NCBI GenBank assembly: GCA_902795345.1
Contig: CADBKO010000028.1
Span: forward strand, 1-64,000
DNA from: Oscillospiraceae bacterium
Lineage (GTDB): Bacteria > Bacillota > Clostridia > Oscillospirales > Oscillospiraceae
DNA: 64,000 bases
Direction: 5' to 3'
The notes beneath the pieces were generated by a model. It saw only the letters and a list, made by a program, of their open reading frames with translations, made no database searches and was not told the origin of the DNA. The position numbers were made by a program, and so were the translations under genes. This document shows, piece after piece, positions 2,694 through 52,685 of this stretch. The first letter of the stretch is position 1, and the number at the start of each line of letters is the position of its first letter.

Positions 2694-2720
2694 TCCCTAA
2701 ACTCAATATCGCAATTGAAT

Positions 2721-2876
2721 GATAGAGGCGCAGCGTCCATCAGTAGTCCCGGCGGAAAAGGCAGCAAAGCCGTTGCCGGGGGCGAAAGGGGCCGCTGCCG
2801 AAGGTGGGGCGCTGCGACCCCCGCCTGGGCAGCCGGAGAAGATCCGTCTGACTGTCGCATATGCGGAGCGCTATGG
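2721..2876 (+). promoter_or_regulatory. Lysine riboswitch (L-box)
   Basis: The segment carries the ordered lysine-aptamer signatures: GATAGAGGCGC at the 5' edge, ATCAGTAG, GAAAGGGG, GCCGAAGG, ACCCCC, GCCTGGGCAGCCGG, CTGTCGCATATGC and GAGCGCTATGG at the 3' edge. It sits between a promoter and an intrinsic terminator ahead of dapA. Lysine binding should favour the terminator and shut down dapA-dapB-ddh-lysA. Confidence 0.92.
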
Positions 2877-2940
2877 ATTGATTGCGGAGCTTCCCCGTTA
2901 CCCCGCCTTTGGCGGGCGCATTGGGGCGTTTCGGGATTTC

Positions 2941-33424: not shown

Positions 33425-33453
33425 GTCTGCCCCTCCCGGAGAATGTCAGTTGA

Positions 33454-34600
<1,147 letters not shown>

Positions 34601-34658
34601 GACGGTACCTCCTATGGTAGCGGCGGATATAGTCCGCCCGTTTTTCAGGATATGCGCC

Positions 34659-34687
34659 ATTGTAAGCCGAAAGCCGGGGAATGTCAA
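34659..34687 (-). promoter_or_regulatory. Promoter of the arginine operon
   Basis: TTGACA (34682-34687) and TACAAT (34659-34664) are separated by exactly 17 bp on the minus strand, about 55 bp ahead of the argG start. Confidence 0.8.
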
Positions 34688-34693
34688 GGGATA

Positions 34694-34742
34694 ATTGAAT
34701 AAAAATTCTGCAAAATCGAAGAACATTGCATAATTATACTCA
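34694..34742. promoter_or_regulatory. ARG-box-like sites for the arginine repressor
   Basis: TTGAATAAAAATTC at 34695-34708 closely matches the ARG-box half-site pair used by ArgR/AhrC. A second AT-rich partial palindrome, TGCATAATTATACTCA, lies at 34727-34742. Both sit just upstream of the -35 of the argG promoter, where an ArgR hexamer could repress. The repressor gene is not in the window. Confidence 0.55.
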
Positions 34743-34772
34743 AATTCAAAAAGCATTGAAGTGTTTTTATTG

Positions 34773-34910
34773 GCCGGACGCGAACGCATCCGGCGCCTCG
34801 CATGGTATGCCAGGTGATTTGCAGTGCAATACGATCTTTTTCCAGCCGAAGGGCTGGAAAACTGCGGTGAGACTACACCGCAGTCATAAAACGGTTTTAA
34901 CCGTTTTATG
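34773..34910. repeat. Cluster of contiguous hairpins
   Basis: Three perfect hairpins follow each other without spacer: TTTTCCAGCC-GAAG-GGCTGGAAAA (34838-34861), ACTGCGGTG-AGACTA-CACCGCAGT (34861-34884) and CATAAAACGGTT-TT-AACCGTTTTATG (34885-34910). A fourth, GCCGGA...TCCGGC, lies at 34773-34794. They fill the gap between the arginine promoter and the malic enzyme terminator and code for nothing obvious. Confidence 0.65.
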
Positions 34911-34918
34911 GAAGATCA

Positions 34919-34957
34919 GTATTATAAAAACGAGAGGGCCCCGCAAGGCAGGGCCCT
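34919..34957 (-). terminator. Terminator of the fumarase-malic enzyme operon
   Basis: On the minus strand AGGGCCC pairs with GGGCCCT (34935-34957), followed by CTCGTTTTTATAATA. It lies about 45 bp after the malic enzyme stop. Confidence 0.75.
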
Positions 34958-35003
34958 TGTGTATTCTGTCGAAGAAGGGGGCGAAATGCAGCCGGATCGC
35001 GGC

Positions 35004-36179
35004 TCAAATCCTCGCTACGCCGCTGGCTCTGGCCGCCTCCGCCACAGCCTTGGCCACCGCGGGGCAGACCCGGGGATCGAAGGCGGCGGGGATGATGTTT
35101 TCGGCGCTGAGCTCCTCCGGGGAAATGAGCCCCGCCAGGGCCCGCGCTGCTGCCAGCTTCATCTCCTCGTTGATGTCGCTGGCCCGGGCGTCCAGGGCGC
35201 CCCGGAAGATGCCGGGGAAGGCCAGCACATTGTTGATCTGGTTGGGGAAGTCGCTGCGGCCGGAGGCCACCACGGCGGCCCCGGCAGCCTTGGCCTCGGC
35301 GGGGAAGATCTCGGGGGTGGGGTTGGCGCAGGCGAAGATCACCGCGCCGGGAGCCATGCTCTGCACCATCTCCTTCGTCACCAGGCCGGGAGCGGAAACG
35401 CCGATGAACACGTCCGCGCCCCTCAGCGCGTCCGCCAGGCTTCCCTTGCAGCCGCCGGGATTGGTGAGGGCGGCGATCTCCCCCTTGGCGGGGTTCATGC
35501 CGGTAGGCCGCCCGGCATAGATGGCCCCGGTGCGGTCACAGAGGGTGACGTCCCTTGCCCCGGCGGAGAGGAGCAGCCGGGCGATGGCCATGGCGGCGGC
35601 GCCCGCCCCGCTGATGACGATGCGCACCCTGCCGAGCTCCTTTTTCACCACCTTCAGGGCGTTGGTGAGCCCTGCCAGGGTGATGACGGCGGTGCCGTGC
35701 TGGTCGTCGTGGAAGATGGGGATGTCGCAGACCTCCTTCAGCCGCCGCTCGATCTCGAAGCAGCGGGGGGCGGAGATGTCCTCCAGGTTCACCCCGCCGA
35801 AGGAACCGGCCAGGAGGGCCACGGTCTTCACGATCTCGTCCACGTCCTTAGAGCGGATGCAGAGGGGGATGGCGTCCACCCCGCCGAAGGACTTGAAGAG
35901 GACGCATTTCCCCTCCATGACGGGCATGCCCGCCTCGGGGCCGATGTCCCCCAGGCCCAGCACGGCGGTGCCGTCGGTGACCACCGCCACGGTGTTCCAC
36001 CGCCGGGTCAGCTCATAGCTCTTGTTTACGTCCTTCTGGATCTCCAGGCAGGGCTGGGCCACGCCGGGGGTATAGGCCAGGCTCAGGCTCTGCCGGTCGC
36101 TGACCGGGGCCCGGGCCGTGACTTCGATCTTGCCTTTCAGCTCATAGTGCAGCTTCAGGGATTCCTTCATGTAGTCCAT
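35004..36179 (-). CDS. NAD(P)-dependent malic enzyme
   Basis: The enzyme decarboxylates malate to pyruvate with reduction of NAD(P). The 391-residue short bacterial type has SLAYTPGVAQPC near the N-terminus, the substrate lysine region EGKCVLFKSFGGVDAIPLC, the metal-binding segment NLEDISAPRCFEIERRL, FHDDQHGTAVITLAGL and a Rossmann motif VISGAGAAAMAIARLL. It follows fumarase by 10 bp, so fumarate can be turned to malate and then pyruvate. Arginine synthesis via ArgH also yields fumarate. Confidence 0.93.
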   Translation of the reverse strand: MDYMKESLKLHYELKGKIEVTARAPVSDRQSLSLAYTPGVAQPCLEIQKDVNKSYELTRRWNTVAVVTDGTAVLGLGDIGPEAGMPVMEGKCVLFKSFGGVDAIPLCIRSKDVDEIVKTVALLAGSFGGVNLEDISAPRCFEIERRLKEVCDIPIFHDDQHGTAVITLAGLTNALKVVKKELGRVRIVISGAGAAAMAIARLLLSAGARDVTLCDRTGAIYAGRPTGMNPAKGEIAALTNPGGCKGSLADALRGADVFIGVSAPGLVTKEMVQSMAPGAVIFACANPTPEIFPAEAKAAGAAVVASGRSDFPNQINNVLAFPGIFRGALDARASDINEEMKLAAARALAGLISPEELSAENIIPAAFDPRVCPAVAKAVAEAARASGVARI

Positions 36180-52362: not shown

Positions 52363-52456
52363 ACAGGATAGGCGCAGCAAAAGGGCGCTGCGGCGCAAGC
52401 AGCGATCACGACATGACCAATTCCCCGTGGCCAGAGGCATTTCGAGGCCTCCGCGT

Positions 52457-52657
52457 CAAACGTGCGGCAGGTTTCCTGGCTCATGGATCAACGCTTGTCG
52501 GCCGCCTTCCCGGTATGGACCAGTGGCACAGCAAATGGCCGAAAACTCCCCAAATACAGTGACGGGATCGTACAGGATTCGCACCTGTTTCCCTTTTGAC
52601 CCGCGCAGCGAAAGAACGCTTGAACTCCGCTTCCGCCCGCAGGCACCGCAGTTTCCT
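52457..52657 (-). promoter_or_regulatory. Cobalamin riboswitch
   Basis: On the minus strand the aptamer begins near GCGGTGCC. It contains GGGAAACAGGTGCGAATCC, GATCCCGTCACTGTA and GTGCCACTGG, and ends in the B12 box GAGCCAGGAAACCTGCCG (52465-52482). Adenosylcobalamin binding should promote the downstream terminator and shut off the corrinoid importer. The divergent biosynthesis operon on the plus strand is not downstream of it. Confidence 0.92.
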
Positions 52658-52685
52658 ATTCACTTTTTATGCTCTATTCCAAGTA

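Follow-up and report, generated by a model that had tools for sequence, protein, structure and literature searches.

The block of abutting hairpins between the argG and malic enzyme genes of this Oscillospiraceae bacterium is, very probably, part of a MITE: a non-autonomous element with terminal inverted repeats (TIRs) and a presumed 3-bp duplication, presumably moved in trans by a putative DDE transposase. It is short (185 bp, below 300 bp), non-coding, present in dispersed copies and bounded by TIRs, all properties expected of a MITE. Its copies are dispersed, its relatives occur in several genera, and most related elements have identical 3-bp flanks. From the dispersal, the ends and the empty sites we infer mobility; transposition itself, and the DDE class of the mover, are presumed. 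The stretch of DNA analysed, here called the window, is 64,000 nucleotides long, and the features discussed are as follows.

34659–34687, minus strand: promoter-like site of argG (gene named by Pfam), TTGACA-17-TACAAT, lying between that gene and the element
34734–34736, unstranded: left-hand TTA of the presumed target duplication (3 bp), placed by the rule drawn from TIR-paired elements
34737–34921, unstranded: complete element, 185 bp, non-coding, two tandem cloverleaves; dispersed copies, TTA/TTA flanks, 194 bits with covariance model R1
34737–34750, plus strand: left TIR, TACTCAAATTCAAA (TACTNATATTCAATWAAA-like in related elements)
34737–34826, unstranded: left cloverleaf, outer stem 34737–34746/34816–34826 (RNAalifold)
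34747–34772, 34773–34794 and 34795–34815: hairpins of the left cloverleaf (RNAalifold)
34824–34832, unstranded: junction between the cloverleaves, GTG-CAA-TAC, which looks like two element ends set back to back, 3 bp apart
34828–34923, unstranded: right cloverleaf, outer stem 34828–34838/34912–34923 around hairpins 34839–34860, 34862–34883 and 34884–34911
34838–34910: hairpins of the right cloverleaf, the three stems of the sequence-only reading; the better-preserved half of the element
34908–34921, minus strand: right TIR, imperfect, ATGGAAGATCAGTA
34922–34924, unstranded: right-hand TTA of the presumed target duplication (3 bp)
34935–34957, minus strand: terminator-like hairpin after the malic enzyme gene, its T-run reaching the element
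35004–36179, minus strand: malic enzyme gene (Pfam)
TACTAATATTCAATTAAA: end sequence expected to bound an autonomous unit

Two tandem cloverleaves at the window locus

The sequence-only reading, whose interpretation proved partly correct, had described three perfect stems of 9–12 bp abutting at 34838–34910, differing in sequence, with a fourth stem nearby. Perfect inverted repeats were recovered at 34838–34847/34852–34861 (10 bp), 34861–34869/34876–34884 (9 bp) and 34885–34896/34899–34910 (12 bp, with a gap of 2 nt); the three stems abut, base 34861 being common to the first two, and they are indeed unlike one another. The fourth also exists, at 34773–34781/34786–34794, although it is imperfect, with a C-A mismatch. 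What had been missed was the outer stem, the second cloverleaf on the left and the nature of the whole block as a dispersed repeat. The outer stem, 34828–34838/34912–34923 (AATACGATCTT/AAGATCAGTATT), encloses the three hairpins and thus closes a four-way junction. The left cloverleaf is partly decayed in the window copy, with several broken pairs and a weaker DNA fold. The interior is a tandem pair of four-way-junction modules, each with three abutting hairpins, in which each TIR is predicted to pair with the central junction and not with the opposite end.

Such a density of hairpins is far beyond chance. When 34733–34931 was shuffled 500 times with dinucleotides preserved, 490 shuffles had no 8-bp hairpin, 10 had one and none had two or more, and ten shuffles of the whole window gave no hairpin cluster. 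Applied to the real sequence, the shuffle script counts just two hairpins and no cluster, because its non-overlap rule discards a stem that shares a base with its neighbour. The RNA fold of 34810–34930 has z = −9.3 and the DNA fold of 34737–34921 z = −8.8, with none of 200 shuffles as good in either case. Each open reading frame that crosses the element either extends the argG frame or lies on the strand opposite to the malic enzyme gene. The argG frame itself (argininosuccinate synthase, window positions 33450–34602) stops early, at about 33737, its C-terminal remainder lying in another frame after an internal deletion apparent by eye; this is either a pseudogene or an assembly error.

Copies, ends and insertion sites

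A BLAST search with 34700–34975 found four copies in the genome of origin (G000). Across 60 genomes, the own one included, DNA-level matches were confined to this genome and another of the same genus (G001), which has eight copies, five full and three partial at contig ends; the other 58 had no DNA match to the window element. Copies in the two genomes are 87–91% identical to the window copy, and the nine full ones (the window copy, three more from G000 and five from G001) align over 199 columns with a mean column identity of 94%. By eye, the flanks differ from copy to copy, save for one insertion site common to G000 and G001 (L004/L030). Parts of both flanks of L029, the copy at G001:C122, match many further places in these two genomes and apparently belong to other repeat families. 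The suggestion that the hairpins are a fixture between two operons does not hold, since the argG–malic enzyme junction is without the element in both same-genus junctions that were aligned, those of G001 and G006. This alignment locates the window insertion, at junctions too diverged to display a duplication base by base. A phage or plasmid origin was rejected on searches of 72,556 plasmid and 50,697 phage records, which held no match to the window element. A loose pattern of the ends occurs in 57 viral-contig stretches, only one of which (L146) is paired within 45–300 bp, and its flanks are unequal.

When the genome-contig collection was scanned with the left end, at least 120 stretches matched. 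By title, ninety of the 120 listed come from Clostridia-type or Bacillota bacteria, and in the remaining 30, from other or unspecified bacteria, many of the matches are probably due to chance. Among the matches listed are 62 TIR-paired elements of 49–261 bp; two of them belong to the window family and come from G001, and the total includes a few pairs, such as L234, that probably arose by chance. Many of the listed stretches have near-perfect TIRs around interiors of different kinds. The flanking trinucleotides of these 62 listed elements are TTA/TTA in 29, TAA/TAA in 22, TTA/TAA in 2 and other combinations in 9, so that the first two types account for 51 of the 62; TTA/TAA, seen in only 2, is the pattern expected were the three bases part of the inverted repeat. 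Because the scan pattern prescribed TTA at one end in 53 of the listed elements, the informative test is the opposite end: 45 of the 53 repeat the three bases there and 8 are unequal, and among the nine listed elements that were not seeded in this way the flanks are equal in six. One further element, in G099, has TCA/TCA flanks, and those of L054 in G080 are unequal. Equal flanks are the signature of a 3-bp target duplication, pointing to insertion with duplication of TTA/TAA, or perhaps TNA. In the window family, eight full copies all have TTA on both sides in element orientation, and the TIRs, near perfect in many related elements, are imperfect; given this combination, a fixed target and a duplication look the same within that family. 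Longer TIR pairs with equal flanks number nine among the matches listed, the two ends of one (L253) being separate R1 matches. There are eight unpaired ends; the frame after one of them, L190, is by eye a host phosphoesterase.

The ends are abundant. Allowing up to two mismatches, TIR matches number 269 in G099 (isolate Lapin-021 bin7) and 90 in G100, with 0 and 4 respectively for reversed-pattern controls; they are present in 19 of the 20 genomes tested, G006 having none. The 269 end matches in G099 perhaps represent about 130 copies. Related elements with like TIRs include a four-hairpin form of about 167 bp and, by eye, a single long hairpin of about 100 bp, so the double cloverleaf is one form in a larger group. 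At about 1488–1540 of G006:C34 lies what appears by eye to be a deletion derivative (L047) that has lost the interior of the G006 form and kept its two ends, and at two loci of G031 (L060, L062) one multi-hairpin element seems, again by eye, to sit inside another as a composite.

The central junction reads like a right end joined through 3 bp to a left end, which suggests a dimer. It is GTG-CAA-TAC in the window copy and most of its family, with the variants GTG-TAA-TAC (L043, L003), GTG-TTA-TAC (L041), GTT-CAA-TAC (L222), GTT-CAA-TGC (L257) and GTA-CAA-TAC (L031, L054); over 15 elements, the inner right end is GTG in 11, GTT in 2 and GTA in 2. Two one-junction units may have inserted side by side to give a tandem dimer whose inner right end has usually changed since. 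The retention of GTA in two junctions argues against this change being essential.

A number of insertions coincide with stop codons. Among the matches listed, 15 of 57 distinct usable elements have a duplicated TAA that terminates an open frame of 100 codons or longer, compared with 434 of 8330 control TAAs at the same loci (binomial P 1.5e-7). When the frame is moved by 1 or 2, the length of 100 codons is reached in 6 and 7 of 61 respectively. One copy lies at the stop codon of an aspartate carbamoyltransferase regulatory-chain gene, and another has a pyruvate formate lyase-like gene on one side and, on the other, a frame that matches nothing in Pfam. Neighbouring genes were taken from mechanically called open reading frames and relied on only where Pfam named them.

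Conservation of the fold and its possible causes

RNAalifold gives the nine full copies a structure of 80 pairs, in which each of two outer stems surrounds three abutting hairpins; 3 of the 80 pairs are already changed on both sides within this set. A covariance model, R1, was built from this fold. The results below bear on two of the checks that the sequence-only reading had proposed, a search for the same multi-hairpin arrangement in relatives and a covariation analysis. The R1 fold was found in 6 of 99 genomes (the own one included) and 4 of 87 genera, namely in G000, G001, G006, G069 and G080 and, weakly, in G031 (E about 1e-7). In six elements outside the training set, 91.2% of cells are paired and 48 of the 80 pairs are changed on both sides; in nine divergent elements that include those six, the values are 93.3% and 53 pairs. 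Sliding the partners by 1–3 columns in the same nine elements lowers these values to 38–46% and 9–15 pairs. These counts rest on an alignment fitted to R1, and use 15 (or 9) of its 37 rows, leaving out opposite-strand, partial and weak rows (L035, L055, L060, L062, L219, L253). Folding of single sequences, which involves no alignment, recovers six hairpins in 15 of 15 elements as DNA and in 14 of 15 as RNA. The outer stems are less regular: L043 forms none of six pairs of the second outer stem as DNA or RNA, and L054 has neither outer stem in its RNA fold. We conclude that the double-cloverleaf fold recurs across genera while the sequence changes.

Why the stems stay perfect is a separate question, on which the chief rival to selection for folding is that the stems of this MITE are unselected, one arm being rewritten from the other by intrastrand template switching or gene conversion. 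We regard this as quite possibly correct. It is compatible with the element being a MITE, and it would explain why 800 of 848 hairpin-stem cells are Watson-Crick while the sequences differ; by eye and by folding, MITEs with like TIRs also come with other interiors, in a form of about 100 bp and a four-hairpin form of about 167 bp. Arm-copying alone does not, however, require what is kept between genera, namely the outer stem, the three hairpins, the junction and the repeat plan.

It is improbable that the element, though spread by a mobile element, now works as a structured non-coding or cis-regulatory RNA, whether a leader, a processing element or a decoy. The structure, which the sequence-only reading thought might be an RNA, is conserved, with pairs changed on both sides across genera, and two locations would suit an RNA: a CarD-family gene has one copy immediately upstream, preceded by a promoter-like sequence seen by eye, and a relative (L035) lies upstream of a transposase gene. 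Within the hairpin stems, G-U/U-G cells outnumber A-C/C-A cells by 23 to 7, but when distinct cases are counted the numbers are 11 and 7, at most a weak lean to RNA. Nor do the loops resemble those of a ribozyme or riboswitch core: no strongly conserved loops were seen among five representatives, in which identity is 75% for the left TIR, the best-conserved part, 66% for the right TIR, 57% for the junction, 54% for the stems and 57% for the loops, the last being about as variable as the stems and more so than the left TIR. R1 scores on both strands of many copies, and the window copy has a terminator-like hairpin on one side and the argG promoter-like site on the other, which makes its transcription there doubtful. 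A known structured RNA was rejected, as the region has no Rfam match at gathering score; the four matches to the element region at E ≤ 10 are far below it. The only Rfam families of the window lie elsewhere, a Lysine riboswitch at 2715–2881 (plus strand) and a Cobalamin riboswitch at 52449–52660 (minus strand).

HUH Y1 elements are not known to duplicate their target on insertion, and a REP/BIME-like palindrome mobilised by a Y1 transposase, or an IS200/IS605-derived element, is highly improbable: it would account for palindromes that are dispersed, intergenic and furnished with a hairpin close to either end, but not for identical 3-bp flanks in 51 of the 62 TIR-paired elements among the matches listed, nor for the perfect or near-perfect TIRs of several related elements.

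For the MITE, then, we favour a role at the DNA level, or one neutral to orientation, if the fold has any role. It may matter as extruded or single-stranded DNA at the ends; alternatively, in copies located in leaders or at stop codons, it could act as a transcript that is compact and neutral to orientation. A fuller proposal, which we consider doubtful as a whole, is that these MITEs form a widespread clostridial transposon group whose interior is selected to fold: a mobile dimer of one-junction units, its inner right end usually disarmed, would offer the putative transposase each end at the base of that end's four-way junction, and TAA duplication would allow harmless landing on stop codons. 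A recombination site, as had also been suggested, would apply only in the sense of transposition, in keeping with the dispersal, the TIRs and the equal 3-bp flanks in related elements.

The putative mover and comparison with known systems

No candidate transposase gene was bounded on both sides by these ends among 15 PF01609 (DDE_Tnp_1) matches in 11 genomes, 7 PF13586 (DDE_Tnp_1_2) matches in 16 genomes and 3 IS30 (NF033563) matches in 16 genomes, a search that covered three families in at most 16 draft genomes, which break at repeats. Near the transposase gene at some loci (L295, L313, L314) there is one end by itself or an entire MITE, which does not bound the gene. The exact 14-bp ends, found at 93 places in G099, form no inverted pair 1–2 kb apart. 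Contig C60 of G000 carries a DUF772/DDE_Tnp_1 transposase gene with a relative of the element upstream of it (L035, 1060–1268); this relative contains an internal tandem repeat and has, by eye, TAA/TAA flanks. A second, partial relative occupies positions 1–139 of the contig. The transposase may be IS1182-like; the domains found in it are only DUF772 and DDE_Tnp_1. The presumed TNA-like duplication resembles that of IS1031/PIF-type elements, in the TWA/TNA detail. Compared with the IS5 group and IS1031, the flanks fit TNA, and an IS5-type transposase with the same ends was not seen in the drafts searched.

A literature search by title and opening of the abstract, mostly outside subscription journals, found no description of such repeats in these bacteria, and the group is apparently an undescribed one of MITEs in Oscillospiraceae/Ruminococcus-type and other clostridial genomes. 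Its ends, duplication and fold provide a clear target for finding the transposase, and the element offers a case in which to ask if selection can act on transposons for a structured interior. A caution also follows: in these genomes a cluster of hairpins can be a mobile element and not an RNA gene.

REP palindromes are likewise dispersed and palindromic, but they are described as having GTAG/CGTC tags and a length of 20–40 bp (PMC3733652), as against 185 bp with TIRs and equal 3-bp flanks in the present group. A 3-bp duplication is given for PIF/Harbinger (PMC2213677). In PIF/Harbinger Tourist MITEs and IS1031-type IS5 elements it resembles the duplication presumed for the element, whereas here no PF01609 or PF13586 gene is bounded by the ends in the genomes searched. 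Closer likenesses are found among bacterial MITEs. RUP and BOX of Streptococcus pneumoniae are abundant, folded, MITE-like repeats with TIRs and a target duplication, and RUP (107 bp) is linked to IS630-Spn1 (PMC3049150). Their TIRs are described there as hybridised to one another, which by that description sets them apart from the present element, where each TIR is predicted to pair with the central junction. BrickBuilt of Porphyromonas gingivalis is also a bacterial MITE (PMC4596501), and Nezha of cyanobacteria is presented in PMC3049150 as short, with TIRs, a target duplication and strong secondary structure. The element described here is like these MITEs in being short, in its TIRs, in its presumed target duplication and in its strong structure, and differs from them in having two tandem four-way junctions on a plan that is kept between genera.
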